A program made the translations under genes and the position numbers. The notes below the pieces were generated by a model that saw only the letters and a list, made by a program, of their open reading frames with translations, did no database searches and was not told the origin of the DNA. Below are positions 1 through 23,113 of a stretch of 39,710 nucleotides of DNA, in pieces; position 1 is the stretch's first letter, and each line of letters starts with the position of its first letter. The stretch is taken from positions 1-39,710 of IMG/VR virus record IMGVR_UViG_3300032240_000665, one strand, 5' to 3'. Origin of the DNA: a virus.

Positions 1-1729
1 CAACAATGTTTACAGCAGCAGAATTTGCAATAATTGATTCAGTATTTACTCTAAAATAAATTGCACGGATATTATTGAATGAAGCATATTTACCTGGTGC
101 ATCAGCAATCAGATTACCTGTGATGACTGTGTTACCAGAAATCAGTTTGATATTTGCTGAACTTGGATTTGATATTACTAAATCTTGTGCCGAGTTGACT
201 GTGAAAATTGTTTGGTCGGCAAACTGAATATTTGCTGTACCGTTTAGCGGTGAACTGTATGCACTAAACTCTACCCACTGATTTGATGAGTTAGAGTTGA
301 TGTACACATACTGAATACCAGATGACGAATCAATCCAGATGTCATCTACATTTGCGCCAGCAGGTGATGTTGCTTGTACATACGTTTGTGTCTTAACATT
401 TGCAGTGGCAAACGCAGCATTTGCTTGTATGAATGCAGAGTTGGCATATTGACCTGTAGCATTCTGTGATTGGTATGCCGCATTTGCTTGTGCATATGCC
501 GAGTTTGCTTGATAGAAAGCGGAGTTTGCATACGTAGCAGTAGCATTACCATAAGTGAACGCAGAGTTTGCTTGGAAGAATGCAGAGTTAGCGTATTGTC
601 CTGTAGCATTCTGACTCTGATAAGCAGAGTTCGCTTGTATGAATGCCGAGTTTGCATACTGACCTGTGGCATTTTGTGAAGTATAAGCAGCATTTGCTTG
701 TGCGTATGCCGAATTTGATTGTATAAACGCAGAGTTTGCTTGATTAAATGCCAAGTTTGCAGCAGTATATGCACCATTCGCATTAGCAAAAGCAGCATTT
801 GATTTGGCAAAAGCAGCATTAGCGTTTGCGTAAGCATTAGAACTATAGATGTATAAATCTACATTACCATTTGCTGCAAAAATATAGTTAGCAAAAATGG
901 CATTAGCACCAGTGATGCTACCATTTGAACCCGTTGTTGTTATTGTGTTTGATGTTACATTACCGACAAAGGTTACATCGCCAGTAACTTGACCACCAAC
1001 GTTTGCATTCAGTGAATTGTTAGCACGAAGGAATGCGGCATTCGCATATTGTCCTGTAGCATTTTGTGACTCATATGCCGAATTTGCTTTTATAAATGCT
1101 GAATTGGCATACTGTCCTGTAGCATTTTGTGACAAGTATGCGGCATTTGCTTGAGCATATGCAGAATTTGCTTGGAAGAATGCTGAATTGGCATACTGAC
1201 CTGTAGCATTTTGACTTTGATATGCAGCATTTGCTTGTGCAAAAGCGGAGTTAGCGTATTGACTTGTAGCATTCTGACTTTGATAAGCAGAGTTCGCTTG
1301 TATGAATGCTGAATTTCCAGTGTTACGAGCATACGTATCAACTGCTGAACCAGTGATGGCAGTATTAACGGCAGCAAATGCAGCATTGGCTTGAATGAAT
1401 GCGGAGTTTGCTTGATTGTAACTGAACTGTATTTGCGGTACAACATTAACACCCGCAACAACTGACGCACCATTTACCGTAAGAACAGCACTAGATTTAT
1501 TAAAAGTTAATCCAGAGTTTGATCCCAGTGAACCTGAGTCATTAAATTGGATTTCTTGGTTAAGACCTGCTGGACCCGGATAAGGGTAATGCGTTATGAT
1601 TGTACCGATAGGCGTTGCATAGAAAAACTTTCCATCACGATTGTTGATAGAAAGTTCACCGTTTGCTAACGATGTAGGTACATTACCACTTACGGTAGAA
1701 TGTTTAAGTTGTATTACTGTGTTTGCCAT
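1..1729 (-). CDS. Ala-Asn repeat tail fibre protein, partial (3' end outside window)
   Basis: The minus-strand frame opens with ATG at 1727-1729, sharing one base with the stop of the upstream 169-residue gene (TAATG), and stays open to base 1, giving 576 visible codons. It begins MANTVIQLKHS and continues PTSLANGELSIN, a version of the N-terminal anchor found in three other proteins here. A short linker leads into heptad repeats of the type A-N-S-A-F-x-Q and Y-x-S-Q-N-A-T-G-Q (about residues 105-235 and 295-455), separated by a segment with VGGQVTGDVTFVGN, a common phage fibre spacer. After the repeats comes a non-repetitive region with DDIWIDSSSGIQYVYIN. The repeats suggest an elongated homotrimeric fibre. 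The receptor-binding end is probably outside the window. Whether it ends in GGxF like its neighbours cannot be seen. Confidence 0.8.
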   Translation of the reverse strand, partial: MANTVIQLKHSTVSGNVPTSLANGELSINNRDGKFFYATPIGTIITHYPYPGPAGLNQEIQFNDSGSLGSNSGLTFNKSSAVLTVNGASVVAGVNVVPQIQFSYNQANSAFIQANAAFAAVNTAITGSAVDTYARNTGNSAFIQANSAYQSQNATSQYANSAFAQANAAYQSQNATGQYANSAFFQANSAYAQANAAYLSQNATGQYANSAFIKANSAYESQNATGQYANAAFLRANNSLNANVGGQVTGDVTFVGNVTSNTITTTGSNGSITGANAIFANYIFAANGNVDLYIYSSNAYANANAAFAKSNAAFANANGAYTAANLAFNQANSAFIQSNSAYAQANAAYTSQNATGQYANSAFIQANSAYQSQNATGQYANSAFFQANSAFTYGNATATYANSAFYQANSAYAQANAAYQSQNATGQYANSAFIQANAAFATANVKTQTYVQATSPAGANVDDIWIDSSSGIQYVYINSNSSNQWVEFSAYSSPLNGTANIQFADQTIFTVNSAQDLVISNPSSANIKLISGNTVITGNLIADAPGKYASFNNIRAIYFRVNTESIIANSAAVNIV

Positions 1730-2238
1730 TAAAATGTCCCGCCAGCCTCAACCTTTAGTTTATTGGTTTCAGTAGCAGAAATTTCAACAGGTAATTCTTC
1801 GATAGTTTTTACAGCAACTTTTTTAATAACTTTGGGTGCAGAAGGAACTAATTTTTCCAATTCAGAAATACGAGATTTCATTTCTTCTATTTCCTTTTCT
1901 TTTAACTCTAATGCACTCTTTGTTGTATTAAGTGTATCTTTTACTGCACCAAGTTCCCGCATAGTGTCATTTAAAGCAGATTGAATTCTAGTTTTTTCTT
2001 GAACTATTGCATCATTACTTTCTGCTTGCACTTTATAATGTTGTGTCTGACCAATTTGTTGTAATGCTTCTTGGTGCTTTGCTGTAAGATCATCAATTTT
2101 TACCTGCATTTCTGCACGAATGTCTGTTTCTTTTTCAAGCAGTTTTAACCGTGCTTGCATCATGAAGTTTTGCTTGATGATTACATCTAAATTCTCAAGC
2201 AAAACCTCTTGATAGGTATTTGAAAATTCCACACTCAT
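1729..2238 (-). CDS. Coiled-coil virion-associated protein (169 aa) ending in GGTF
   Basis: The 169-residue product opens MSVEFSNTYQEVLLENL and is charged and heptad-like from about residue 30 to 130, with regular Leu/Ile spacing and many Glu, Lys and Gln, so a long coiled coil is likely. A basic and Val-rich linker (VIKKVAVK) leads to the C-terminal GGTF. Proteins with this N-terminus occur beside fibre genes in T4-like phages of aquatic bacteria, where they are uncharacterised. The ATG is preceded by AAAGGAAA at suitable spacing. It lies between two Ala-Asn repeat fibre genes and is translationally coupled to the next by a TAATG overlap. Inference: a fibre-associated trimerisation or assembly factor. 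Confidence 0.75.
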   Translation of the reverse strand: MSVEFSNTYQEVLLENLDVIIKQNFMMQARLKLLEKETDIRAEMQVKIDDLTAKHQEALQQIGQTQHYKVQAESNDAIVQEKTRIQSALNDTMRELGAVKDTLNTTKSALELKEKEIEEMKSRISELEKLVPSAPKVIKKVAVKTIEELPVEISATETNKLKVEAGGTF

Positions 2239-2263
2239 AATATTTTCCTTTCATGACAATAAT

Positions 2264-5020
2264 TTAGAATGTTCCGCCCTGCAAGTATGTAAATGTTGGA
2301 ACACCAGAAGCGTTGATAGTTAATACATGTCCTTCAGTTGATGAAGATGCAGTAGTAAATGCGCTTGTTCCTTGACCCAACAAAACACCATTATTTGTAA
2401 ATGTAGTTGCACCAGAACCACCACGTCCTACAGGTAATGTACCTGAAGTAATCGCATCAGCAGAGATTGCAATTGCTGTATTATTGGCAGAAGTAATACG
2501 ACCATTCGCTTCAACTCTAAACGAAGCAACTGCACTAGCAGTACCATAATTTCCAGCACTGATTGATACATTTGTAAAGTCAGTATTGGCTTGATTAAAC
2601 GCAGCATTAGACTGTGCAAATGCTGCATTAGCCTGATAGAATGCTGCATTAGCCTGATAGAATGCAGAATTAGACTGATTCGATGCATACGTAATGTTAG
2701 TATTCTGTGTGTTATTAACTGCTACAGCACCGTTAGCAGCATTGAATGCAGCATTGGCAGTATTGTATGAAGAAGCAAGTGTTGGTACGACATTGATACC
2801 ACCAGCAGTGAATCCATTTGCGGTAATACCACCAGGTACAGATAACGAATTATTGGAGAATACAAATTCGTTTACTGCTGTGCCATTAGTACCAGTTTGA
2901 ATCTTGACTACATCGCCTCTATTTGATATCAGATTGGTTTCATTGTTTAGTGATAGTTTGTTTCCACCAAACGAACCACCGTAGATTCCTTGATATGATT
3001 CAATACCAGAAGCACCAAATTTAGTTTGTTGTCCAGCAACATCAATCGTTACTTGACCAGAATCACCTAAAGTAAGTTTTGATGAGCCAGCAGAAGATGC
3101 AAAACCAGTGTTTGCAACAACATAATCTGCAATAACGTTAGCAGTAACACCTACTGTACCTGAAACTGAACCACCAGAGTTCGCATTCAGTGAGTTATTG
3201 GCACGTGTATATGCAGCATTAGCAGTATTAAGTGCTACAATAATATTATTATTTTGTCTTACATTAACTGCTTCAGCATAGGTAATATAACTGTTAGCAT
3301 TAGCATACGCAGCATTAGCAGAATCAAATGCAGCATTAGCAGTATTTGTAAGTTGTCTAAACGATCCAACTGCGGCATCAGGCAATTTGAGGTCTTGAAC
3401 ACCACCAATTAATGCAGTATCAGTGCTATTGACTGAGGTGTTCTTAATTGTCAAACCACCAATATCGATAGTTCCCGAACCAACAAACAACGAATGCCAA
3501 CGATTAGTTGCAGAACCCAGGTTCCATGTAACATCAGATGTTGGTTTTAAAGAACCAGTAAAGTTGACGTTACCAGTAACTGTACCACCATTGTTTGCAT
3601 CTAACGAATTGTTAGCACGAAGGAATGCAGCATTAGCAGTATCGTATATGCCATTTGCATATGGAAGTAAATCAATGTTCTTGACACGAACAGATTGTGA
3701 TTTTAAATTAGCATTAACTGTTGCAATATGGAACGATGAATCGGATGGATCAATATTATTATTTGCACCAATTTCTGGAGTATAACCATCAAATACATAG
3801 AATTCTTTATTGGTTGAATCACGAATAATACCAGCATGTGCATTTGTACCATTATTGTAGTGACCAGCAAAACCAATATCTACGATATCAGATGTGTAAT
3901 TTCCAAGACCAAGAATAATTAACGAGTCATTGGCAACAATTTCTGTGGTGCTAATAGAAACAACATTACCAGTAACAATCAGGTTACCAGTAATAGAAAC
4001 GTCACCAGTAACTGTACCACCATTATTGGCAGACAACGAGTTATTGGCACGTGTATATGCAGCAGAAATTCTACTGTTCTGTGCTGCATTAACTGCTTCA
4101 TTATATGTGATGTAACTGTTTGCATTTGCATATGCAGCATTAGCAGTATCCGAAGCAAATGCAATAGAGTTATTCTGTGTTAGATTAACACCTGTGCTTA
4201 CATTAGCAGCAGCATACGCAGCGTTTGCTTGGTTGAAAGCAGACAATGCACTGTTCTGTGCATTTGTGATGTTAGTATTTTGTGTTACATTAACTGCTTC
4301 ATTGTATGTAATGTAACTATTAGCATTCGCATATGCAGCATTGGCAGTATTAAATGCAGCCGAAATGGAATTATTTTGTGTAAGATTAACTGCTACGGCA
4401 CCGTTAGCGGCAGCAAATGCAGCAGTTATGGAATTGTTTTGTGTAAGATTAACTGCCACTGTACCATTGGCAGTGCTGAATGCAGCATTCGCTTGATCAA
4501 ATGCGCCACTAGCATTGTACTGTGCCGCAATAGCAGCATTGTATGCATTACTAGCATCTGCCAAAGCACTTGTTGCATCACTCTGTGCATTACCCGCAGC
4601 AGTATAAGCAGAGTTTGCTTTGTCAAACGCAGCATTCGCATGATAGAATGCCGAGTTTGCTGTTCTACGAGCATAACCATCGGTTGCTGCACCACCAGTT
4701 AAAGTATTAACGGCAGCAAATGCACCGTTGGCATAGATGGCAGCAGAATTGGCAGTTGCAAAAGCAGCATTGGCTTGATTATATGCTCCTGCGCTTGATG
4801 ATCCACTATTGGCAGCAGCATAAGCAGCATTTGCGGTATCATAAATTGCTTGTTGTTGATCTAGATAAAACTTACCACCGATTGGAATGACACCAGTACC
4901 AGTAGGCGAACCAATAAAGAACGTATTACTGACATAAGAATATGCTGGCTCCGCAATATTTAACGAAGTTGGAGTAGCATTTACCTGCGAGTATTTTAGT
5001 TGAATAACGGTATTGGCCAT
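2264..5020 (-). CDS. Large Ala-Asn repeat tail fibre protein (918 aa)
   Basis: This protein starts with the shared anchor (MANTVIQLKYS, then SLNIAEPAYSYVSNTFFIG) at residues 1-45. Heptad repeats of the A-N-A-A-F/Y-x-x type fill about residues 55-345. Next come a VTGDVSITGNLIVTGN spacer, a domain with DIGFAGHYNNGTNAHAG and EFYVFDGYTP (about 370-440) seen in fibre-like proteins of marine T4-like phages, a WNLGSATNRWHSLFVG block, and more repeats. The C-terminal part holds a GTLPVGRGGSGATTF segment, the RGGTG-type motif common in phage fibres, and ends QGGTF. The ATG follows AAAAGGATAG and a CATAAATA late promoter motif. It is probably a trimeric side fibre; the exact receptor-binding part is unknown. 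Confidence 0.85.
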   Translation of the reverse strand: MANTVIQLKYSQVNATPTSLNIAEPAYSYVSNTFFIGSPTGTGVIPIGGKFYLDQQQAIYDTANAAYAAANSGSSSAGAYNQANAAFATANSAAIYANGAFAAVNTLTGGAATDGYARRTANSAFYHANAAFDKANSAYTAAGNAQSDATSALADASNAYNAAIAAQYNASGAFDQANAAFSTANGTVAVNLTQNNSITAAFAAANGAVAVNLTQNNSISAAFNTANAAYANANSYITYNEAVNVTQNTNITNAQNSALSAFNQANAAYAAANVSTGVNLTQNNSIAFASDTANAAYANANSYITYNEAVNAAQNSRISAAYTRANNSLSANNGGTVTGDVSITGNLIVTGNVVSISTTEIVANDSLIILGLGNYTSDIVDIGFAGHYNNGTNAHAGIIRDSTNKEFYVFDGYTPEIGANNNIDPSDSSFHIATVNANLKSQSVRVKNIDLLPYANGIYDTANAAFLRANNSLDANNGGTVTGNVNFTGSLKPTSDVTWNLGSATNRWHSLFVGSGTIDIGGLTIKNTSVNSTDTALIGGVQDLKLPDAAVGSFRQLTNTANAAFDSANAAYANANSYITYAEAVNVRQNNNIIVALNTANAAYTRANNSLNANSGGSVSGTVGVTANVIADYVVANTGFASSAGSSKLTLGDSGQVTIDVAGQQTKFGASGIESYQGIYGGSFGGNKLSLNNETNLISNRGDVVKIQTGTNGTAVNEFVFSNNSLSVPGGITANGFTAGGINVVPTLASSYNTANAAFNAANGAVAVNNTQNTNITYASNQSNSAFYQANAAFYQANAAFAQSNAAFNQANTDFTNVSISAGNYGTASAVASFRVEANGRITSANNTAIAISADAITSGTLPVGRGGSGATTFTNNGVLLGQGTSAFTTASSSTEGHVLTINASGVPTFTYLQGGTF
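2580..2690 (-). repeat. 21-bp tandem repeats encoding A-N-A-A-F-Y-Q heptads
   Basis: Within the 918-residue fibre gene the unit attagcctgatagaatgctgc is repeated head to tail with one or two changes per copy, each 21 bp encoding one heptad. Similar units recur along the Ala-Asn regions of four fibre genes. Such in-frame repeats allow length change by whole heptads through recombination or slippage. Confidence 0.8.
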
Positions 5021-5062
5021 TTTCTATCCTTTTAAGAAGGCTTTTAGGTTTAATTATTACTT

Positions 5063-5070
5063 TATTTATG
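5063..5070 (-). promoter_or_regulatory. Putative late promoter CATAAATA upstream of the 918-aa fibre gene
   Basis: The minus strand reads CATAAATA in the 61-bp gap between the 222-residue gene and the 918-residue fibre gene, about 43 bp before the start codon. It matches the T4 late promoter core TATAAATA except for the first base. The gap is unusually long for this tightly packed region, which supports a promoter here. Confidence 0.5.
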
Positions 5071-5081
5071 TATTTACTTCT

Positions 5082-5750
5082 TTAGAAACTACCACCGAAA
5101 ATCAATGTTGTGATTGCATTAGCAGCAATAAATGCCGCATTCGCTTGTGCATAAGCAGAATTTGCTTGAATGAAACCAGAGTTGGCATATTGGCCTGTAG
5201 CATTCTGACTTTGATACGAGGCATTCGCTTGTGCATAAGCAGAATTTGCTTGAATAAAACCAGAGTTGGCATACTGACCAGTTGCATTCTGTGATTCATA
5301 TGCCGAATTTGCTTTTATGAATGCTGAATTAGCATACTGACCCGTGGCATTCTGACTTAAATAAGCAGCATTCGCTTGTGCATATGCGGAGTTCGCTTGA
5401 ATAAGTCCAGAATTAGCATAACTGCCTGATGAATTTTGGCTTAAATAAGCAGCATTTGCTTGAGCAAAAGCAGAATTAGCATATTGACCTGTAGCATTCT
5501 GTGATTCATATGCCGAATTTGCTTTTATGAATGCTGAATTCGCTTGATTATATGCTACATTAGCAGTATCGAAAGCATATCCTAATTGAACAATATACTT
5601 ACTACCACCAATTTCAATAACACCGTTATTAGCAGTTGTGCCAATAAACAATGTATTACTTGAATACGAGTAACCTGGTTCTCCAATGTTTAAAGAAATT
5701 GGAGAGTTGTTTGCTAACGATCTTTTAAATTGTATTAAAGTATTATTCAC
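5082..5750 (-). CDS. Minimal Ala-Asn repeat fibre protein (222 aa) ending in GGSF
   Basis: The start is GTG at 5748-5750, ten bases after the previous stop; no better ATG precedes the anchor, which reads NNTLIQFKRS then SLNIGEPGYSYSSNTLFIG. Almost all the rest (about residues 60-210) is heptad repeat in longer units containing SQNATGQYANSAF. The protein ends FGGSF. There is no recognisable head domain: it is anchor, repeat shaft and tag only. It could be a short spacer fibre, an accessory shaft, or a remnant of a larger fibre. Its repeats are nearly identical in DNA to those of the gene at 1-1729. Confidence 0.75.
   Translation of the reverse strand: MNNTLIQFKRSLANNSPISLNIGEPGYSYSSNTLFIGTTANNGVIEIGGSKYIVQLGYAFDTANVAYNQANSAFIKANSAYESQNATGQYANSAFAQANAAYLSQNSSGSYANSGLIQANSAYAQANAAYLSQNATGQYANSAFIKANSAYESQNATGQYANSGFIQANSAYAQANASYQSQNATGQYANSGFIQANSAYAQANAAFIAANAITTLIFGGSF
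5101..5570 (-). repeat. Ala-Asn repeat block shared with the fibre gene at 1-1729
   Basis: Long stretches such as gaattagcatactgaccc and tgattcatatgccgaatttg recur several times here and again at about 1030-1300 and 420-720 with few changes. They encode SQNATGQYANSAF units. The DNA similarity between separate genes exceeds what the amino-acid pattern alone requires, which suggests recent exchange or duplication. Confidence 0.7.
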
Positions 5751-5760
5751 GGGTATCTAT

Positions 5761-6396
5761 TTAAAAAATCCCGCCGGCAATTGCTGTTGGACCAGTATTT
5801 GCTTGTTGAAATGCGGCATTAGCGGTGTTAAATGCAGCAACAAGTCTGTTGTTTGCAGCAGCAACACCAATCTCACCGATGTATCTGTAACCAGTAATAT
5901 AAATTACTTTCGCTGCTGTTAGCGTTGCTGGTATTGTACCGCCGATAAAGTTTAATACACCTGATTGATAGTCAAAGAACCATTCACCTACACCACCAAT
6001 ACCAGAGTCCGATAATGGTGTTCCTGTAGTTGGATTAGCATTACCTGAAGTTTCGGCATACACTTTAATAAAATATGTTGAACCAAATTCTGGTGTAATC
6101 CAATCAGTTAGATTTGTTTTCCATGATGGATAAACAGAACTTATTGGAGTTGTTGTGGTATCAGCAGTACATTGAACTCTAGCAGTTGTTTGATACAGTT
6201 GAACTATTGAAGTATTTGATCCTGGTGCTGTTGCAGGAATGTCTGCCGCTTGTGTCCAAACACGATCACCACGATTAATGGTTGGACTGGCAATAGATTC
6301 ATTGCTCGGACTTTTATTTGTTGCCGTATCTGTTTTAGCAACACCAAAAAGTTTTTTGTATAATAAGTCTACTTTTGACGAATCTGATATTGACAT
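5761..6396 (-). CDS. Conserved virion-associated protein (211 aa) ending in GGIF
   Basis: The product begins MSISDSSKVDLLYKKLFGVAKT and contains DIPATAPGSN, ITPEFGSTYFIKVY and a WFFDYQSGVLNF block. I recall related proteins next to fibre genes in T4-like cyanophages and other marine myophages. After a mixed globular domain (residues 1-175) it has two Ala-Asn heptads (AAFNTANAAFQQAN) and ends AIAGGIF, so it carries both hallmarks of this block. The ATG lies two bases after the preceding stop without a clear ribosome-binding site, indicating translational coupling. The function is not known; a connector between fibres or between fibre and baseplate is possible. Confidence 0.7.
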   Translation of the reverse strand: MSISDSSKVDLLYKKLFGVAKTDTATNKSPSNESIASPTINRGDRVWTQAADIPATAPGSNTSIVQLYQTTARVQCTADTTTTPISSVYPSWKTNLTDWITPEFGSTYFIKVYAETSGNANPTTGTPLSDSGIGGVGEWFFDYQSGVLNFIGGTIPATLTAAKVIYITGYRYIGEIGVAAANNRLVAAFNTANAAFQQANTGPTAIAGGIF

Positions 6397-6398
6397 AG

Positions 6399-9041
6399 TT
6401 AGTTACTTGCGGTTTGTAGGGATAACGCAGTCACAGTTTGACCGGTTGTAAGTTTAATCCTAACGTAAATCTCATTTAATGTAGTATCGGAACTTGATAC
6501 CGTACCAAACGTACAAGTTTTTCTATGTGCTGATACTAAACTATTTAGTGTGACTATACCACCTAACGCACAACCATTACTTCCATTTCCTAATACACCT
6601 GGTATACCTGATCCAGCATATGCCACACTCATGTCTAACCATCCACCAATAGTAGATTTCGAATCTATAATACTACCTGGAAGTGCAACCCATAGACCAG
6701 CAATTGTTCCAGAGAATTGAATATCAAATTTAGATACTGATGTACGAATAAATTTAAATGTAAAGTATTGTGAACCAGAACGACCTGTACTTAAATTTGG
6801 ACCTACTGGTAAATAACCTGTAGAGTAATTTGTTATATCATGTTTCAATACACCAGCAACAATAGTAGCATCAGTAACACGAAGTGGTCCATTTGTACTA
6901 TCAAATGCTGAAGCATTATTAGCATACGAAGGATTATCATTAGCAGTTCCTGAATCGGGATTTGCAACTCTAAATGCCAATCCAGAACCCACTCCAATAG
7001 CCGAACCAAATGTTAAAGTAGTTTCTTCCATTGCACTTGATGTGCCAGTTTTGTACTGAACGATTCCGCTAGGAGTAATTGCTGCTGATGTTGTAGAAAG
7101 ATAACTATTGTTTGTTGTTACTGTAGGACCAGAAGAACTATTGCCAAAACCTGTAGTAACAGCACATGTTAAATTTACCGTTGCATAACCACTTGTTACA
7201 TAAAGATTACGTGCAAGCGGTGTTGTAATACCTGCTTGTGTATATGTGACACCTGCATTAGATTGAAAAGCACCACCACTTGCTGCTGACACAAATGTAT
7301 CAGTTGTTGGATACGTATCACCACTTAATTTTGCAACATTGAATCCTACATTGAACAACGTAGATGAATTATAATGTGGTATGGTGCTTGAGTTGGCATA
7401 CGAAACAGTATTTGATACGATGCTTGTTGATGATATTACTGGTGCACCTGGTGCATTATCATCATAGTACCAGAAAGGAGTATTGGTTGTTGATGCTCCA
7501 GAATGTGTCAGATAGATTTCATTCCAACCATTTGATACTGTACCTGCTGCTGAAGAGTCAAAACTTCTCCAGAAACCTTGCGCTGTTCCAGGAACTTTTG
7601 AACCATAATCAACACTGTCCGAAATAACTATATCACCATATGTTCCATTTGCGGAAGCATTTGTAAAAGTGTATGCACTATTATTAGCACTATTTTTAAA
7701 TAATGTTAATGTACCACTATCACCTGGACCTTGATCTTGAATTGTTGATGTGCTATAAGAACTTGAACGACGAATGTTTGTAACAGTGGTACCACCAGCA
7801 ACATTTCTTGATGATGATGTACGATCTGTTTGAGTAAAGTTCGTCATTCTAAACGTCTGGACATTACTAATCGTAAGAGTATTTCCAGATGGAAATGCTG
7901 GTGGTCCAGGAGGTACAAGTTTACCTAACACTTGATTTAATTGCGCTATACTATTTGTCACTGATGTTGTTGTGGTAAGAGTTATTGCATTGCTTACTAA
8001 TTGACCTACACCATTTGCTCCTAATGAAATATTATTGCCAACAGGAGTACCAGTTGTATTCGCTTGTATGAATGCAGCATTGGCTTGGTTACGTGCCCAC
8101 GAATCAGTGGATGAACCACCAGCATTCGCAGCAGCAAACGCAGCATTCGCAGTATTGAATGCAGCAGTAATAGAATTGTTTTGTGATGCATCAACACCGA
8201 CTGAAACATTTGCTTGTGTGAATGCAGCATTAGCAGCAACAAACGCAGCATTTGCATACGATGCCGCAGAGTTAGCAACATATGATGGTGTATTCGCTTG
8301 TATAAATGCAGCATTCGCAGTATTGAATGCGGCAGTAATGGAATTATTTTGTGTAGAATTAATACCATCAATATTATTTGCTGAAGCAAACGCAGCATTA
8401 GCGGTATTCAGTGCTACAGTAATAGAATTGTTTTGTGTTGTATCGGTTGCAGTAGAAGCATTTGCAGCAGCAAAAGCAGCATTTGCAGTATTACGTGCAT
8501 ACGAATCAGTACCACTACCGCCAGCATTAGCGGCAGCAAACGCAGCATTTGCAGTATTGAATGCGGCAGTAATAGAATTGTTTTGTGTTAAGTTGGTTGC
8601 AGATGCGGTATTAGCAACAGCAAAAGCAGCATTCGCATATGATGCAGCAGAGTTGGCAACATAACTTGGAGTGTTTGCTTGTATGAATGCAGCATTGGCA
8701 GTATTACGAGCAGATTGATCTGTACCACTACCACCAGCATTTGCAGCAGCAAAAGCAGCATTTGCTTGAATGAATGCGGAATTTGATTGATTACGAGCGG
8801 CCTGATCTACATTTCCAGCAACAGCATTGTTAGCAGTAGTAAACGCAGCATTTACTGTGTTAAAAATTATTTGTTGTTGATCTAGATAAAACTTACCACC
8901 AACTGCAATAGAACCTGTACCAGCAGGTGAACCTATGAAGAATGTATTACTGGCATACGAATACGCTGGTTCTCCAATATTTAAACTATTTGGAGTATTG
9001 GTCGTTAATGACCGTTTTATTTGTATTATTAGATTGGCCAT
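6399..9041 (-). CDS. Large Ala-Asn repeat fibre protein with distinct C-terminal domain (880 aa)
   Basis: Residues 1-45 carry the anchor (MANLIIQIKRS, SLNIGEPAYSYASNTFFIG). Heptads of the A-A-F-x-x-A-N type fill about residues 55-330, often broken by TQNNSITAAFNTANAAF. The remaining 550 residues are non-repetitive and rich in Ser, Thr, Gly and Asn, with Trp/Phe-rich stretches such as FWRSFDSS, FWYYDDNAPGAP, FTFKFIRTS and GGWLDMSVAYAG. It ends LSLQTASN, the only complete protein of this block without GGxF. The large C-terminal region is a good candidate for receptor binding. ATGGCC follows the preceding stop after ten bases. Confidence 0.8.
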   Translation of the reverse strand: MANLIIQIKRSLTTNTPNSLNIGEPAYSYASNTFFIGSPAGTGSIAVGGKFYLDQQQIIFNTVNAAFTTANNAVAGNVDQAARNQSNSAFIQANAAFAAANAGGSGTDQSARNTANAAFIQANTPSYVANSAASYANAAFAVANTASATNLTQNNSITAAFNTANAAFAAANAGGSGTDSYARNTANAAFAAANASTATDTTQNNSITVALNTANAAFASANNIDGINSTQNNSITAAFNTANAAFIQANTPSYVANSAASYANAAFVAANAAFTQANVSVGVDASQNNSITAAFNTANAAFAAANAGGSSTDSWARNQANAAFIQANTTGTPVGNNISLGANGVGQLVSNAITLTTTTSVTNSIAQLNQVLGKLVPPGPPAFPSGNTLTISNVQTFRMTNFTQTDRTSSSRNVAGGTTVTNIRRSSSYSTSTIQDQGPGDSGTLTLFKNSANNSAYTFTNASANGTYGDIVISDSVDYGSKVPGTAQGFWRSFDSSAAGTVSNGWNEIYLTHSGASTTNTPFWYYDDNAPGAPVISSTSIVSNTVSYANSSTIPHYNSSTLFNVGFNVAKLSGDTYPTTDTFVSAASGGAFQSNAGVTYTQAGITTPLARNLYVTSGYATVNLTCAVTTGFGNSSSGPTVTTNNSYLSTTSAAITPSGIVQYKTGTSSAMEETTLTFGSAIGVGSGLAFRVANPDSGTANDNPSYANNASAFDSTNGPLRVTDATIVAGVLKHDITNYSTGYLPVGPNLSTGRSGSQYFTFKFIRTSVSKFDIQFSGTIAGLWVALPGSIIDSKSTIGGWLDMSVAYAGSGIPGVLGNGSNGCALGGIVTLNSLVSAHRKTCTFGTVSSSDTTLNEIYVRIKLTTGQTVTALSLQTASN
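8051..8850 (-). repeat. Heptad-encoding repeat region in the 880-aa fibre gene
   Basis: Units such as gcagcattcgcagtattgaa and gcggcagtaatagaattgtt alternate through this interval, encoding A-A-F-N-T-A-N-A-A-F and TQNNSIT elements. The same alternation is found at about 4060-4500 in the 918-residue gene. Confidence 0.7.
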
Positions 9042-9051
9042 TTATAGTTTT

Positions 9052-9282
9052 TTAGAAATAACCGCCATCAACTTGCGCTACTGTTACAGGAGTTATAATT
9101 GAAGTGCTTTTAGTTTCATATTTGTTATTTGCGGAACTATAAACAAGTATGTATCCGTCTTGAAGTCCTACTGTACTCACATCATTTATTTCTGCCATGG
9201 CTACATTAGGCTTGGCACGAAAATCATTTGATACAACCGTAGTTCTATTTGGTTGAAAAACTTTAACTGAAACTGAATCCAT
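9052..9282 (-). CDS. Small virion-associated protein (76 aa) ending in DGGYF
   Basis: A 76-residue protein beginning MDSVSVKVFQPNRTTVVSND. It contains LQDGYILVYSSANNKYETK, a pattern (D-G-x-x-L-V-Y followed by a lysine-rich turn) that I recall from short proteins beside fibre genes in marine T4-like phages. It ends QVDGGYF. The start follows AAGAAG and lies 11 bases after the 135-residue gene. The function is unknown. Its last residues match those of the upstream protein (VDGGTF), which suggests a common assembly role. Confidence 0.65.
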   Translation of the reverse strand: MDSVSVKVFQPNRTTVVSNDFRAKPNVAMAEINDVSTVGLQDGYILVYSSANNKYETKSTSIITPVTVAQVDGGYF

Positions 9283-9293
9283 ATTTATTCTTC

Positions 9294-9701
9294 TTAAAAA
9301 GTTCCGCCATCAACTTCCATATCTGATGATGGTGATGGTTCTGGCGGTGGTGAATATGAATTATAACTATTAGTAACTGCTGGAAGAATTACTGCTGTTC
9401 CTTCCACTACTCGCATCACAGAATTATTTAAAGAGTTGGTTATGTTTAAATCATAAACATATCGACCAGGATTAAGATTAGCAGTATTTGCTGCGGTCAT
9501 TGAAAGAGTAATTTGACCGTTTGCAATACCAGTTACTGTTGCGTTTAAAGGTGTATATGTTGAAGAATAATAAGATTTACGAAGTTGGGAAGCGGCAGTA
9601 TAAAATTGTAGATTTATTGGGTAACCACTATCGTCTGATACTGTAACATACGATGTTAGATTTGCTCCCTGCTCAATGGTTAATTCTGCATATGCCGCCA
9701 A
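9294..9701 (-). CDS. Immunoglobulin-like fibre adaptor protein (135 aa), TTG start
   Basis: The product contains LTIEQGANLTSYVTVSDDSG, then NGQITLSMTAANTANLNPG followed by RYVYDLNITNS and VVEGTAVILPAVT. This is the pattern of the small beta-sandwich proteins found near tail fibre genes in many phages, similar to the N-terminal domain of phage BppU-type proteins (recalled, not searched). After a Pro/Ser linker it ends MEVDGGTF. The start is taken as TTG at 9699-9701 because AAGGAG lies eight bases upstream and no ATG fits the conserved N-terminus. It is the first gene after the terminator and follows a CTAAATA motif. Confidence 0.65.
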   Translation of the reverse strand: MAAYAELTIEQGANLTSYVTVSDDSGYPINLQFYTAASQLRKSYYSSTYTPLNATVTGIANGQITLSMTAANTANLNPGRYVYDLNITNSLNNSVMRVVEGTAVILPAVTNSYNSYSPPPEPSPSSDMEVDGGTF

Positions 9702-10192: not shown

Positions 10193-10208
10193 TATTTAGT
10201 TATTTATA
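10193..10208 (-). promoter_or_regulatory. Putative late promoter: TATAAATA plus CTAAATA
   Basis: The minus strand carries a perfect T4 late core TATAAATA (10201-10208) and, nine bases further, CTAAATA (10193-10199), just upstream of the 122-residue gene. It begins four bases after TAA 10212-10214, the stop of the read-through frame of the upstream gene. It is the best promoter match in the window. Confidence 0.65.
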
Positions 10209-10211
10209 TAG

Positions 10212-10568
10212 TTAAGTCCAAGACAGAATAACAATGCCTGAACCACCTTGCATACCAACAAAATCTCTTGCTCCACCACCACCACCTCCTGAACCTTGTG
10301 CTCCTGTATTTGCAGGATATGATGTTGGTGCGCCAGGTTGTCCACTACCTTTTCCACCACCACCAAGACCACCAGAAACCATACTTCCACCATTAGTTGT
10401 TCCACCACCCCCACCAGCATAGTATGTCGGTGTTCCGGAATATGATGATGTTAAACCATTTCCTCCCGCGCCACCACTTCCACCTCCGGAAGGACTACCA
10501 GCAGCACCCGCACCGCCGCCACCGCCACCGCCTAAATTTGAATCTGCTGAACCTCCAGCATTACCTTG
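10212..10568 (-). other. In-frame continuation of the glycine-rich gene beyond its TGA (118 codons)
   Basis: After TGA at 10569-10571 the same frame continues QGNAGGSADSNLGGGG and runs open to TAA at 10212-10214. It contains LTSSYSGTPTYYAGGGGG and ends GGSGIVILSWT. The intact paralogue at 16488-19793 has GTPGQGNAGG, LSSSYSGTPTFYAGGGGG and GSGIVILTWT at the same positions. The TGA therefore replaces a GGA glycine codon and this segment is the missing end of module four. It has no good start of its own. It is either lost coding sequence, read-through sequence, or an assembly error. Confidence 0.85.
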
Positions 10569-13481
10569 TCAAGGTGTTCCTGCACCACCCGCACTACTGT
10601 AACCACCACCGCCACCAGAACCACCTGAATTGCCTGGACCTTGAGGTGGTCCATTAAAACCGCCACCTCCGCCACCACCTACCGCAGTAAACGATGAAAA
10701 TATTGAATTTGTTCCATTTCCACCTTTACTATTCGGAGTATTTGGTCCTGATGTATAACCTCCTGCACTACCACCAGCACCAACCGTAATAGCATATGGC
10801 GTTCCTGGAGTTACTGAAAAACCTGTACCCGTCAAGAAACCACCACCACCGCCACCGCCACCAACATGTCCTCCACCACCACCACCACCTGCGACTACAA
10901 GATAGTTTACTGATGTTGTTCCCGCAGGAGGTGTCCATGAACCTGAACCATAAAACACTTGTCTATATGTGGCAGGTGTTGAAGAATGTTTTAATATCAA
11001 TATACCCGAAGCACCTGCTCCACCAACTCCAGGTGGTTGAGTCGCACCACCGCCACCACCGCCAGTTCCAAATGTTGCATTTGAACCATTATATGCGCCA
11101 GTGACGTTTATACCGCCTGTACCACCTCCACCTATACCACCTGCGCCAGCAACAGCGGGAGAATCAACTCCACCACCACCACCCCCCGCAAGATAAGTAA
11201 CTGTTCCTGTTAATGTAGTTGATTGTCCAGCACCACCATTACCTCCAGCCGGACCATCTTGACCAACCGCAGCAGCACCTCCGCCACCGCCACCCCTATA
11301 TGGAGCAGCAGGACCTGTACCAAAACCTCCATTATTACCTTGACCATATGTTCCTAATCCACCATTTGGATAAGCGGGACTACCACCACCGCCTCCACCA
11401 CCACCTGAACCGCCAGAGAAAGCATAATTACCATTATTGTCATAACCACCACCACCGCCACCGAATGATGTGAGTGTAGTAAATGTACTATTTGTACCAT
11501 TGCCGCCATTTGTGCCGGGTGCTATACCACCAACGCCACCAGCACCAATAATAATCGGATATGATGTACCTGGAACTACCGCTAATCCTGTACCTGATAA
11601 GTAACCACCCGCACCACCACCGCCACCACGACCATTTCCATTTGAACCGCCACCACCTCCAGCAACTAAAACATAATCAACAGAAGTGATTCCTGATGGT
11701 GGTGTAAATGAACCTGATGATGTAAAAATATATGTGTTGACTGAAGGTTGTGTAACAGGAATAGAAACAATAACGATACCTGAACCACCTGCTCCCCCAT
11801 TACCCTGTGGAGAATTAGAACCACCACCACCACCGCCACCAGTATTAGTGTTCGCAGAAGCACCTGCTTGCCCACCAGAAAAACCACCGTTGCCACCACC
11901 GAATGGTGTTCCTAACCAAGGTGATCCTGTTGAATATACAGCATAACCTCCACCACCCCAACCACCTCCAGCATTACCTAAATCAACTGCATTACCTCCT
12001 GCGCCGCCGCCAGCATATGCTACATTAGCACCAGAGATTGTTGAAAATATTCCTATACCGCCATTACCTCCACGTGCTGGAGTTCCTACTCCAGTTCCAC
12101 CACCACCGCCACCGCCAGTTGCGTATGGTCCAGCATATGTACCGCCAGCATATCCTTGTCCTGGTGTTCCAGCACCTGCTGCTGATCCAGGACCAGAACC
12201 AGCACCACCACCAGAACCTCCAGAATATCCAATTGCACCAGGACCGCCTGATGAACCACCTCCACGTGCAACTAATGTTCCAAATACTGAATTACTTCCA
12301 TTACTACCAAAATTCGGTGCGCCAGAACCGCCAGAACCACCAGCACCAACAACAACTGAAAGTATAGAACCTGGTCCTACAGGATAACCAGTGCCAGATA
12401 ATACACCACCAGCACCACCACCTCCTGCACGATCCCAACCACCACCGCCACCACCAGCAATAACAAGATAATCTACTTGCGAAACGCCAGCACCTACAAC
12501 GAATTGACCTGTGTTTGAAAATGTAAATATTGCAGAAGGAGGAGAAACATAATAACGAAGAATAACTATACCAGAACCTCCATTACCACCTTCAGATGCA
12601 CCAATATAACCACCACCTCCACCACCACCAGAACCAGTATTTAATAGGGCAGTTGCTGATGCTAATGGCGTTCCAGTGCTGTCACCAGTTCTACCATTTC
12701 CTGCTCCATAACCTCCAGTTCCTCCAGGCAAACCATATCTACCAGAAGCACCTCCGCCACCTCCACCAGCATAACCTATATTTGAACCTGTGAATGTTGA
12801 ATATAATGCAATTCCTCCATTACCACCCAAAGAAGATGCTCCTGCATCTTGACCTTTTCCACCAGCACCACCTCCACCTGCACCCGCTTCATTTACAGAA
12901 CTATTTCCACCAGCATTACCTTGTACTATAATAGTATTTGCTATACCTCCAGTAGGAGTTGCTCCGGGCATTGATGCTCCACCACCAGAACCTCCTGAAC
13001 CGCCAGTACCGCCAACACCGTATCCACCACCTAATCCACCACCCTCAGTATAAACATTATGAAAGGATGAATTTGATCCTTTATTTCCTGCTGCTCCTTG
13101 AGGTGCGCCCACTGAACCTGGACCACCAGCACCAACAATAACAGTATAATTTTGTCCAGCAGTAACAGGATAACCTGTTGCAGTTCGTAAACCACCACCG
13201 CCGCCACCACCTGCCCATGTATGCCCTCCACCGCCGCCGCCAGAAACAATAAAATAGTCAACTGTGGATACACCAGTAGGTGCTGTCCATGTGGATGAAG
13301 TTGTAAATACTTGAAAACCTTGAATTTGACCCGTACCAACTTCTTGTGGCCATATGCCAGCAAGTTTAGCAATCTGTGCCTCATTAATTGACCAGATACC
13401 GACAGCATTACCTTGACCTACACCACCACCAGTAGTCAGATTTCTACTACCAATAATACCGCCGTTAAAGCCCTTAGCCAT
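10569..13481 (-). CDS. Four-module glycine-rich adhesin-like protein, interrupted by TGA (970 aa)
   Basis: The start ATG overlaps the stop of the 127-residue gene (TAATG). After a 55-residue head (MAKGFNGGIIGSRNL) there are four modules of about 260 residues, starting near 57, 310, 575 and 830. Each opens with a strand like TWTAPTGVSTVDYFIVSGGGG, passes through poly-glycine loops and a GTPGQGYAGG turn, and closes with GSGIVILRY, GSGIVIVSIP or GILILKH. The fourth is cut by TGA at codon 971; with read-through the product is 1089 residues, close to the 1101-residue paralogue. The module type is the glycine-rich domain seen in phage and bacterial surface proteins. Packed polyglycine-II helices, as in the phage S16 gp38 adhesin, are a plausible fold but unproven. 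Confidence 0.8.
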   Translation of the reverse strand: MAKGFNGGIIGSRNLTTGGGVGQGNAVGIWSINEAQIAKLAGIWPQEVGTGQIQGFQVFTTSSTWTAPTGVSTVDYFIVSGGGGGGHTWAGGGGGGGLRTATGYPVTAGQNYTVIVGAGGPGSVGAPQGAAGNKGSNSSFHNVYTEGGGLGGGYGVGGTGGSGGSGGGASMPGATPTGGIANTIIVQGNAGGNSSVNEAGAGGGGAGGKGQDAGASSLGGNGGIALYSTFTGSNIGYAGGGGGGASGRYGLPGGTGGYGAGNGRTGDSTGTPLASATALLNTGSGGGGGGGYIGASEGGNGGSGIVILRYYVSPPSAIFTFSNTGQFVVGAGVSQVDYLVIAGGGGGGWDRAGGGGAGGVLSGTGYPVGPGSILSVVVGAGGSGGSGAPNFGSNGSNSVFGTLVARGGGSSGGPGAIGYSGGSGGGAGSGPGSAAGAGTPGQGYAGGTYAGPYATGGGGGGGTGVGTPARGGNGGIGIFSTISGANVAYAGGGAGGNAVDLGNAGGGWGGGGYAVYSTGSPWLGTPFGGGNGGFSGGQAGASANTNTGGGGGGGSNSPQGNGGAGGSGIVIVSIPVTQPSVNTYIFTSSGSFTPPSGITSVDYVLVAGGGGGSNGNGRGGGGGAGGYLSGTGLAVVPGTSYPIIIGAGGVGGIAPGTNGGNGTNSTFTTLTSFGGGGGGYDNNGNYAFSGGSGGGGGGGGSPAYPNGGLGTYGQGNNGGFGTGPAAPYRGGGGGGAAAVGQDGPAGGNGGAGQSTTLTGTVTYLAGGGGGGVDSPAVAGAGGIGGGGTGGINVTGAYNGSNATFGTGGGGGGATQPPGVGGAGASGILILKHSSTPATYRQVFYGSGSWTPPAGTTSVNYLVVAGGGGGGGHVGGGGGGGGFLTGTGFSVTPGTPYAITVGAGGSAGGYTSGPNTPNSKGGNGTNSIFSSFTAVGGGGGGGFNGPPQGPGNSGGSGGGGGYSSAGGAGTP

Positions 13482-16484: not shown

Positions 16485-16492
16485 TATTTATG
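16485..16492 (-). promoter_or_regulatory. Putative late promoter CATAAATA containing the stop of the 1101-aa gene
   Basis: The minus strand reads ACATAAATAGTG, where TAA (16488-16490) is the stop codon of the glycine-rich gene. It lies 32 bp before the ATG of the 137-residue gene, a suitable leader length. Confidence 0.5.
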
Positions 16493-19400
16493 TCCATGTT
16501 AGGATCACAATTCCAGAACCACCTGCTCCTGCTTGTCCTGTTGTATTGTTATTTCTTCTTGCGCCGCCACCGCCGCCGCCAGTATTTGGTGTGCCAACAA
16601 TTCCAGGATTGTCACCATCACCACCTGCACCGCCACCACCAGTACCGCCAGTTCCTGCAGTTGTAGTGGCACCGCCACCACCGCCGCCAGCATAAAATGT
16701 TGGTGTTCCAGAATATGATGATGATAGTCCTGCACCACCATTTCCACCTGCACTTCCAGGAGTCGCAGATTGTCCAACCGCACCAGCACCACCGCCACCA
16801 CCTCCACCATAATTAGGAGCACCTTGTCCTGCACCACCAGCATTACCTTGACCAGGAGTTCCAGCACCACCTAAACCAGAACCTCCACCGCCACCGCCAG
16901 AACCGCCACTCATTCCGTTAGTTGCTGGAGAAGTACCAGCACTTGCAGCACCACCACCAATTGCAGTAAATGAAGAGAAAGATGAATTTGTTCCGTTTGA
17001 ACCAACTCCAATATAAGGTGGTGCTGGAGTACCTACGCCGGCAGCACCACCAGCACCAACTGTAATAGCATATTGTGATCCCGGTGTTACTGAAAATCCT
17101 GTGCCTGTAAGATAACCACCAGCACCGCCACCCGCACCACCACTACTACTACCAGCGCCACCACCTGCGACAACAAGGTAATTGACTGTAGTAGATTGTG
17201 CAGTGAATGTACCTGATGAATAGAATACTGCTCTTGTTGGTTGTGATGCTGAATGTTTGAGTATCAGTATGCCTGAACCACCAGCACCACCGACTATAGT
17301 TGTTGCGGATGGTTGAGCACCACCACCGCCTCCACCGCCAGTTCCTGTGGTACCATTTGCAGAAGCCTGTGCTGTTGGATTAGAAGCACCATAACCGCCA
17401 CCACCTTGACCGCCAGCACCACCGCCTCCAGTATCTTGTCCACCCCCGCCACCGCCACCTGCCAAATATGTTAATGTACCTGTGAGTGTAGTTGATAAAC
17501 CAGCACCGCCAGCACCACCAGCGGCACCGGGAGTTGCTGTAACTGTACTACCTACAGCACCAGCACCACCACCACCACCACCAGGAGCAAAACTTGAAGA
17601 AGGTGCTCCACCACCATTACTTCCTTGTCCTGGTGTTCCCGATCCACCAGTTGGAGTATTGGAATCTTTACCTGCGCCACCACCAGAACCACCAGACATA
17701 CCTTTATTAGGTTTTGCTCCACCACCGCCACCACCAAGTGATGTGAGTGATGAAAATGATGAATTTGTTCCGTTTGAACCAGCAATTCCTGGACTATTAA
17801 TTCCTCCGATACCACCTGCACCAATAGAGACAGAATATGTTTGTCCTGGTGCTACTGGATAACCTGTACCAGATAGATAACCTCCTGCTCCTCCACCTCC
17901 GCCATCACCACCATTACCTGAACCACCGCCACCACCGCCGCCGACTAGAACATAATCAACCGCAGTAATTCCTGGCGGTGCTGTCCATTGACCTGATGCT
18001 GTGTAAAGATATGTTGTTACTGATGGTTGTGTCGTAGGAATAGAAACAATAACGATACCAGAACCGCCAGTGCCTCCAGAACCATTACCTGGACTATTTC
18101 CACCACCACCACCGCCTCCACCAGTATTATTGTTTGCTGAATCTCCTGGACCACCGCCTGCTTTTCCACCACCAAAAGGTGTGCCTAACCAAGGCGATCC
18201 TGCCGAATAAAGTGCGTAACCACCGCCACCATAACCTTGAGAATTTGGAGTTCTAGCATTGTCTCCACCACCTCCGCCGCCGCCAGCATATGCTACGTTA
18301 GCACCAGAAATTGATGAAAATATTCCTATACCGCCGTTCCCAGATTTTGCTGCGGGAGGTCCAACAGCATTAGTTCCAGCACCACCGCCACCACCACCGC
18401 CACCCGCAGAAAAAGGATCACCATTAGGTGTACCTGGACCAGAACCTGCTCTGCCATTACCACCAGAATAACCTTGTCCCGGCGTTCCTGCTGCACCATA
18501 TTGATTTGCAGTTGGCCCTTCACCACCGCCACCGCCAGAACCTCCAACTTTTGCAGTAGCAATACCAGTACCACCACCGCCACCACCAACAGCATTTAAT
18601 GTGCCAAATACAGAGTTACTTCCGTTACTTCCACTAGTGGCTCCACCACCGGGTGAAATACCGCCAACACCACCAGAGCCAACAACAACTGAAATGACAC
18701 CATTTGAACCTACAGGATATCCAGATCCCAATAAAACACCACCGGCACCGCCGCCACCACCAACGGCACCACCACCTCCACCTCCACCAGCAACGACAAG
18801 ATAATCTACAGTCGATATACCTGTAGGTACGATAAATGTGCTTGTATTTAAAAATGTGAAGATAGCATTTGTTGCTGCTCCTTGTGTCCATTTAAGAATA
18901 ATAATACCAGAACCACCAGCACCGCCATTACCTGATGCTCCACCGCCACCGCCACCACCACCTAAATTCGTATTTGCAGATGAACCTGTACTTACTGAAC
19001 TGGGTGCTCCATTAGCACCACCATAAATTGGATTACCACCGCCGCCATAACCACCCGTTCCATTTACAGTAACACCGCCACCACCGCCGCCGCCATAAGC
19101 AACATTTGCTCCAGTAAATGTTGAAAATATTCCTATGCCGCCATTACCAGCAACTGCGGATGCTCCGGTGCTTCCTACACCACCAGCACCACCACCTCCA
19201 CCGCCAGTAGAATTTGTACTAAGGTCACTAGAACTTCCACCACCAGCAAAACCTTGACCTGGCGTTCCTGGACCACCATTTGTAGGAGTTGCTGATGGTG
19301 ATCCTGTTGAACCACCGCCGCCTGAACCGCCAGCATATCCTATACCACCTATAGTTGGTCCTGCTCTATCTCCACCACTTCCACCACCAATTGACCAATT

Positions 19401-19793
19401 AATTAATGCTGCGCCACTATTTGTATTAAATATTCCAGAATTAGAACCGTTACCACTTCTAACCCACGGACTATTAAGAGCACCAACACCACCAGAACCA
19501 ATCGCTACCGTATATGTTATTCCAGGAGTTACGTTTATACCTGTGCCCGTTTGATAACCACCAGCACCACCTCCGCCACCGCCATTTGCACCGCCACCAG
19601 CACCACCACCGAGAGCAAAATAATCTACTGACGATACACCAGTAGGAACTGTCCATGTTTGTGATGCTAAAAATACTTGATATGCAGTATATGATGTTGG
19701 TGCAGCAGGTCCAGGCGCAGCACCGCCACCAGTACCTGGCACGGTCATGCGTTTCAGTGAAACTTTGTTGAGCGTTATTCTATTAAGTGCCAT
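16488..19793 (-). CDS. Four-module glycine-rich adhesin-like protein (1101 aa), fibre cassette 1
   Basis: A 36-residue head (MALNRITLNKVSLKRMTVPG) is followed by four glycine-rich modules starting near residues 38, 305, 588 and 850. Each opens with a strand such as TFIVPTGISTVDYLVVAGGG and ends GSGIIILKW, GSGIVIVSIP, GSGILILKH or GSGIVILTWT. The order of module types matches the gene at 10569-13481: module two of both has SPWLGTPFGGG, and module four has SSYSGTPTFYAGGGG. This is the intact copy of the pair. No signal peptide or membrane segment is seen. Polyglycine-II packing is an inference from composition. The likely role is a large exposed adhesin. ATG lies two bases after the 112-residue gene. 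Confidence 0.8.
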   Translation of the reverse strand: MALNRITLNKVSLKRMTVPGTGGGAAPGPAAPTSYTAYQVFLASQTWTVPTGVSSVDYFALGGGAGGGANGGGGGGAGGYQTGTGINVTPGITYTVAIGSGGVGALNSPWVRSGNGSNSGIFNTNSGAALINWSIGGGSGGDRAGPTIGGIGYAGGSGGGGSTGSPSATPTNGGPGTPGQGFAGGGSSSDLSTNSTGGGGGGAGGVGSTGASAVAGNGGIGIFSTFTGANVAYGGGGGGGVTVNGTGGYGGGGNPIYGGANGAPSSVSTGSSANTNLGGGGGGGGASGNGGAGGSGIIILKWTQGAATNAIFTFLNTSTFIVPTGISTVDYLVVAGGGGGGGAVGGGGGAGGVLLGSGYPVGSNGVISVVVGSGGVGGISPGGGATSGSNGSNSVFGTLNAVGGGGGGTGIATAKVGGSGGGGGEGPTANQYGAAGTPGQGYSGGNGRAGSGPGTPNGDPFSAGGGGGGGGAGTNAVGPPAAKSGNGGIGIFSSISGANVAYAGGGGGGGDNARTPNSQGYGGGGYALYSAGSPWLGTPFGGGKAGGGPGDSANNNTGGGGGGGGNSPGNGSGGTGGSGIVIVSIPTTQPSVTTYLYTASGQWTAPPGITAVDYVLVGGGGGGGSGNGGDGGGGGAGGYLSGTGYPVAPGQTYSVSIGAGGIGGINSPGIAGSNGTNSSFSSLTSLGGGGGGAKPNKGMSGGSGGGAGKDSNTPTGGSGTPGQGSNGGGAPSSSFAPGGGGGGAGAVGSTVTATPGAAGGAGGAGLSTTLTGTLTYLAGGGGGGGQDTGGGGAGGQGGGGYGASNPTAQASANGTTGTGGGGGGGAQPSATTIVGGAGGSGILILKHSASQPTRAVFYSSGTFTAQSTTVNYLVVAGGGAGSSSGGAGGGAGGYLTGTGFSVTPGSQYAITVGAGGAAGVGTPAPPYIGVGSNGTNSSFSSFTAIGGGAASAGTSPATNGMSGGSGGGGGGSGLGGAGTPGQGNAGGAGQGAPNYGGGGGGGAGAVGQSATPGSAGGNGGAGLSSSYSGTPTFYAGGGGGGATTTAGTGGTGGGGAGGDGDNPGIVGTPNTGGGGGGARRNNNTTGQAGAGGSGIVILTWT

Positions 19794-22753: not shown

Positions 22754-23113
22754 CTAACCGCCCAAGGCAATTGCAAATGCGATTGATGAATCAATTGCTG
22801 CGGTAATTGAACTGTAAATTGCTGTGTTTGGTGCACCCGTAAACGTACCTGTAATTGCTAGATTGCCTAGATAAGAATTTCCTGATACACTTGCGTTGGC
22901 AACGTTTGCGGTATTAGCATATAACTGATTGATGGCACCACTATTACGAACATTTAAACTAGAACGCACACCAGAAATATCAATCTGACTATTAGCAATA
23001 AACGGTGAACCATTAGCGCCGTCAGTAAGATTGTTGGCAACCGCTACCAAATAAGAAGTAGTTGTCACCCATTCCGAAAAAGTATTCGATGTGTTTATTT
23101 GATTAATTGCCAT
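22754..23113 (-). CDS. Short fibre-type virion protein (119 aa)
   Basis: The product starts MAINQINTSNTFSEWVTTTS followed by NNLTDGANGSPFIANSQIDI. The opening I-N-T-x-N-T-F-x-x-W with N-x-L-T-D-G resembles the N-terminus of long fibre-like proteins of marine T4-like phages, but here it ends after 119 residues in AFAIALGG. It may be a shortened fibre or only the anchor domain. It is the only gene in the window ending in TAG. Its ATG lies 11 bases inside the end of the 78-residue gene. Confidence 0.65.
   Translation of the reverse strand: MAINQINTSNTFSEWVTTTSYLVAVANNLTDGANGSPFIANSQIDISGVRSSLNVRNSGAINQLYANTANVANASVSGNSYLGNLAITGTFTGAPNTAIYSSITAAIDSSIAFAIALGG

Follow-up and report, generated by a model that had tools for sequence, protein, structure and literature searches.

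The long tail fibre of phage T4 is a head-to-tail chain of gp34, gp35, gp36 and gp37, which are encoded in their physical order; we know of no C-terminal tag shared by these proteins. In Bordetella phage BPP-1, the receptor-binding protein Mtd is located at the distal end (tip) of the fibres (PMC3567102). Its N-terminal domain, Mtd_N (PF18454), is presumed to mount the receptor-binding protein on the tail fibre, the attachment being assigned to the N-terminal beta-prism of Mtd (PMC10743442). Among the receptor-binding proteins of Klebsiella Przondovirus phages (KP32), modular assemblies arise by docking of fibre or spike proteins on each other through a short conserved peptide (PMC13082707; PMC13073335). 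There the peptide is N-terminal on the distal protein, while the receiving T4gp10-like branching domain resides in the proximal one.

We analysed a 39.7-kb viral fragment (the window) whose genes are read on the minus strand, the strand of all fibre-region features located below. Baseplate wedge and hub genes (phrog_219, 438, 261, and 430) adjoin the fibre genes, as expected for a T4-like contractile-tailed phage, and the source is an aquatic T4-like phage. Six ORFs of the window end in Gly-Gly-X-Phe (GGxF): those at 1729 (EAGGTF), 2264 (LQGGTF), 5082 (IFGGSF), 5761 (IAGGIF), 9052 (VDGGYF), and 9294 (VDGGTF). Scanning with a degenerate DNA pattern has found exactly these six GGxF ends, and the reversed-pattern control gave none. 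With the internal GG.F rate as background, the probability of at least 6 of the 28 genes ending in GGxF is about 1.4e-15. The original prediction, which had named these six ends, is thus borne out, as is its statement that GGC is the codon of the first glycine in five of them. It had also called the six proteins successive, which does not hold, since they belong to a run of seven genes with one untagged member. This member is the 880-residue fibre (6399-9041), correctly listed as lacking the tag: it ends in LQTASN.

We consider it likely that GGxF is the plug of a head-to-tail joint and docks on an N-terminal socket of the fibre subunit encoded next. The free C-terminal peptide of the proximal subunit ([DN]GG[TS]F-type) would insert into the socket of the distal subunit, in direct contact with it and presumably with trimeric stoichiometry. 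Gene order would then mirror the physical order of the subunits, as it does in the gp34-gp37 chain of T4, and the tag would be kept on proteins carrying the next joint and be absent from chain ends. The new element is the link between the tag and the N-terminal domain of the protein encoded next: neither GGxF nor the DxGxL tag considered below was found described in the open-access papers searched, the subscription literature being outside the scope. In comparison with the Klebsiella system the polarity is reversed, as the peptide is the extreme C-terminus of the upstream protein, and no T4gp10-like domain is present among the Pfam and PHROG matches of the window. The socket resembles Mtd_N of BPP-1 in its presumed mounting role. 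In BPP-1, however, bbp9, located directly upstream of mtd, codes for a protein with a sister tag (ADLGGIA), which is not described in the BPP-1 papers found, whereas the sockets of the window fibres are divergent, give no Mtd_N match in Pfam and take GGxF rather than DxGxL.

To follow the tag beyond the window, we used a related-loci set of 169 sequences, which included the window, copies of its parts, relatives of two window proteins and two isolate regions. GG.F ends 140 of the 1862 distinct ORFs in this set, while the counts at 15 other offsets from the C-terminus are 0-2 each. A separate cyanophage set, collected by means of one protein each from P-HM1 and DSL-LC02, has 72 such ends among 606 ORFs and none at offsets 1-7. 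In whole virus records GGxF clusters in the fibre locus; in one 146-kb record all five matches lie within 6.4 kb. By definition the tag has F at position -1; T or S predominates at -2, N, Q or D is frequent at -5, and -6 usually holds an aliphatic residue. Free variation of these C-termini among homologues, which would speak against a function, is not seen in the families of the 918-, 222-, 169-, 211-, and 76-residue proteins, where the tag is typical. The Ig-like protein family is different, being mostly untagged: only 2 of its 45 distinct homologues carry the tag, both in the window's own clade. The docking-type peptide proposed in the original prediction is supported by conservation at the protein level in the related loci.

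The socket is an N-terminal domain of about 55 residues, and socket proteins start with 'MANTVIQLK.S...P.SLN..EPAYSY.SN..FIG'. Among 104 distinct pairs of a socket gene and its upstream neighbour, the neighbour ends in GGxF in 86, in a near variant (DGSSF, NGFF or VGFF) in 14 and in neither in four. In other (non-socket) gene pairs, GGxF is present on the first protein in 44 of 1310. Even with GGxF alone counted, the association has a Fisher p of 1e-85, although the sequence sets are phylogenetically correlated and such p-values overstate independence. Nearly all GGxF genes without a following socket represent the fibre-to-coiled-coil step; the coiled coil in turn carries a tag and has a socket gene downstream. 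The cyanophage set contains 26 GGxF-socket pairs and only two untagged socket neighbours, and isolates P-HM1, Melnitz-1 and DSL-LC02 show the same arrangement. The tagged families (the 76-residue protein, the 211-residue protein, the coiled coil, the fibre and links of 78-83 residues) are non-homologous and have only the tag in common. Apart from socket, helix and tag, the minimal 78-83-residue proteins contain hardly anything, as expected of chain links.

The 211-residue base protein and the 76-residue adaptor occur in two forms: as tagged proteins of their own, with socket fibres encoded next, or directly joined to long fibre shafts in one chain. Nearly all fused forms have neither a tag nor a downstream socket gene. 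Tag and socket together thus replace a peptide bond. In the base-protein family (phrog_9417), 11 members combine GGxF with a following socket, one has GGxF without a socket, 18 have neither, and no untagged member precedes a socket; the untagged ones are longer, fused proteins. There are exceptions: two fused base proteins (loci L028 and L151) do end in GGTF, and the phiCbK base protein is tagged, yet no recognised socket is located downstream.

In the window, the fibre genes could form two chains. The gene preceding them codes for a 135-residue Ig-like protein (9294..9701; phrog_3304 'L-shaped tail fiber protein assembly' / phrog_1084) with a GGTF tag (9297..9308) restricted to the window's clade. 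It is tagged though the next gene is that of the 76-residue adaptor, which counts against the pairing rule. Chain one would consist of this adaptor (9052..9282; phrog_13853 family), which ends in GGYF (9055..9066) and is directly fused to long fibres in some phages, and of the 880-residue fibre (phrog_8578), whose divergent Mtd_N-like socket (8877..9041) would receive this tag. GGxF is present in 35 of 38 distinct homologues of the adaptor, and 28 of the 30 with a neighbour precede a socket gene. All 50 distinct homologues of the 880-residue fibre are untagged, and none of the 41 with a neighbour has a socket next. The lack of a tag on this fibre can be explained by its position at the chain end, as the gene after it codes for a protein lacking the socket.

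Chain two would start with the 211-residue globular base protein (5761..6396), whose family has the tag in separate proteins and mostly lacks it in fusions with a fibre. Its GGIF tag (5764..5775) would enter the socket (5586..5750) of the 222-residue link protein (5082..5750), which carries both socket and tag (GGSF, 5085..5096). The latter would be received by the socket (4856..5020) of the 918-residue fibre (2264..5020; GGTF tag at 2267..2278), followed by the 169-residue coiled-coil protein (1729..2238; GGTF tag at 1732..1743) and the last, truncated fibre, which has a socket of subtype 'LANGELSINNRDGKFFY' (1565..1729) and whose gene is cut off at base 2, at the window edge. Since it is the coiled-coil gene, not a socket, that comes next in 31 of 40 tagged homologues of the 918-residue fibre, one has to assume an intermediate or a skip at this step. 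The coiled-coil family of 35 distinct members has 23 GGxF ends and 12 variants, and all 33 members with a neighbour precede a socket. In the closest relative, the last fibre ends in DIFMGY and no Mtd_N gene follows, in agreement with the prediction of the code. The end of the coiled-coil protein located between two fibres varies (GGTF, DGSSF, DDF), and this protein may be a hinge-like part.

The GGxF socket is probably a divergent Mtd_N domain, judging from Pfam matches and from the Mtd and Mtd_N matches of a structural model. PF18454 is matched by 17 of 75 divergent-socket relatives at E<=0.1, the best value being 1.3e-5. All structure predictions were made for single chains. The AlphaFold2 model of an 83-residue link, built from a 75-row alignment, has a four-stranded domain and a helix with a mean pLDDT of 87. 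Mtd structures make up five of its top seven PDB matches, weak ones with E>=1 each, and comparison with viral models returns many matches named Mtd_N (probability, 1.0; E as low as 3e-4). The tag is flexible in this single-chain model, so the model provides no evidence for or against contact in trans. A 78-residue link predicted by AlphaFold without an alignment reached a pLDDT of only 44. Alignment of the divergent socket to canonical members by hhalign gave a P of 0.001 with a probability of only 21%. The divergent profile found only chance beta-propeller matches among sequences of solved structures, and tblastn of the window's own socket against isolates found no match at E 1e-3.

Another tag akin to GGxF, D[YFLW]G[TS][LIV], occurs in the same loci and would serve canonical Mtd_N sockets. 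A protein ending in D[YFL]G.[LIV](x) precedes canonical Mtd_N in 21 of 22 distinct pairs (the exception ends in DLGAFS), and no crossover between the GGxF/divergent and DxGxL/canonical combinations was found. In a further set, selected on Mtd_N, the sister tag stands before canonical Mtd_N in 35 of 41 cases, again without crossover. When the C-termini are aligned, [DN]-G-G-[TS]-F matches D-[YFL]-G-[TS]-[LIV], W being also met at the second position of the sister tag. The sockets following DxGxL belong to the Mtd_N family, as 11 of 11 members match PF18454, and the canonical-socket profile matches the solved Mtd-P1 at 1.1e-25. Proteins with this kind of end are encoded before Mtd_N-type proteins in CRP-3 (gp31, DFGSI), S-TIP37 (S-TIP37_39, DFGTL), Minorna (DLGEL), phiB1_1 (DFGAL), Vibrio 1.021 (DYGSVA), a Syntrophomonadaceae phage (DWGSLT), and Vibrio D69 (DDGGLS). 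In Vibrio phages phiV141 ('DYGTI-AAGAH-LQLRRDT') and qdvp001 ('DYGAV-VGDGLV-VKHRRGT') the tag is internal and Mtd_N begins five or six residues further on; a search with phiV141 confirmed no further fused examples. Canonical Mtd_N genes without a DxGxL neighbour are present in S-SSM7, S-CAM1 and Vibrio K385.

Two more arrangements were observed near Mtd_N genes. In S-SSM7, S-CAM1, Sf-FS3, and S-SCSM2R (L268, L270, L278, and L282) the protein before the Mtd_N gene ends in R[TV][YF]..I[IV], possibly a third tag. In Escherichia phage Minorna (L274, 3240-4792) the DLGEL anchor is followed by an Mtd_N-type protein ending in DLGVIT and then by another Mtd_N-type protein.

We lean towards the broader view that matched C-terminal tags and N-terminal Mtd_N-type sockets (GGxF with divergent, DxGxL with canonical and perhaps more) constitute an orthogonal mix-and-match assembly code of tailed phages, which would include the Bbp9-Mtd joint of BPP-1. 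If so, the succession of proteins in multi-protein tail fibres would be determined by the code, and receptor-binding modules could be exchanged between unrelated phages. It would provide a testable function for a motif and for a widespread N-terminal domain of phage adhesins, predict the joint mounting Mtd on BPP-1 and explain the ordering of split fibres, so that the fibre order of uncultured marine and freshwater phages could be deduced from their sequence.

The original prediction suggested that the tag docks on a single chaperone, connector or capping protein shared by the fibre proteins, and the identical ends of several non-homologous proteins can indeed be expected in this case. Such a common partner is nevertheless improbable, because two tags pair with two socket families without crossover. 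The tag depends on the N-terminal domain encoded by the next gene and is mostly lost on fusion, while the untagged fibres encoded in these loci have to fold as well. We also doubt that the pairing is a co-inheritance artefact, in which fixed blocks of genes with tags and sockets are inherited together and the tag does something else, e.g., caps the trimer end. The loci are related and their gene order is conserved, but the upstream families are unrelated, adjacency of tag and Mtd_N recurs in podoviral BPP-1, in S-TIP37 and in Vibrio and gut phages, and tag and socket can be fused in one chain.

An RNA-level role of GGCGG before the stop codon was another suggestion of the original prediction. 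A ribosome-binding or coupling element of this kind could account for the over-use of GGC at the first glycine of the tag (40% vs 14% at internal glycines), and some gene joints do overlap (TAATG). However, GGT, GGC, GGA and GGG are all used for the first glycine, the codons of the second one vary likewise and the choice differs between clades. The distance from a tagged gene to the next one ranges from -1 to >60 nt with the peptide kept throughout, and the position of Phe and stop is fixed at the protein level. As the glycine codons vary freely, the tag acts as a peptide; the codon and spacing tests led us to reject an RNA-level function, to which we assign hardly any probability.

Some features outside the fibre chains deserve mention. 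The IALG C-terminus is present on 46 distinct ORFs (in the window, 22754-23113; in many loci, e.g., L044, L058 and L064), usually just upstream of the gene for a 108-residue 'MANxFKN' protein or of a 'MAKPTTR..F..YCLR' gene. At 10569, a Gly-rich ORF of the window (10196-13481, minus strand) is terminated by TGA in frame, a stop codon used by no other assigned gene of the window. The frame stays open for >100 codons beyond this TGA and ends in 'GGSGIVILSWT', resembling the paralogue at 16488-19793. This TGA may represent a nonsense change, a sequencing error or a readthrough site.
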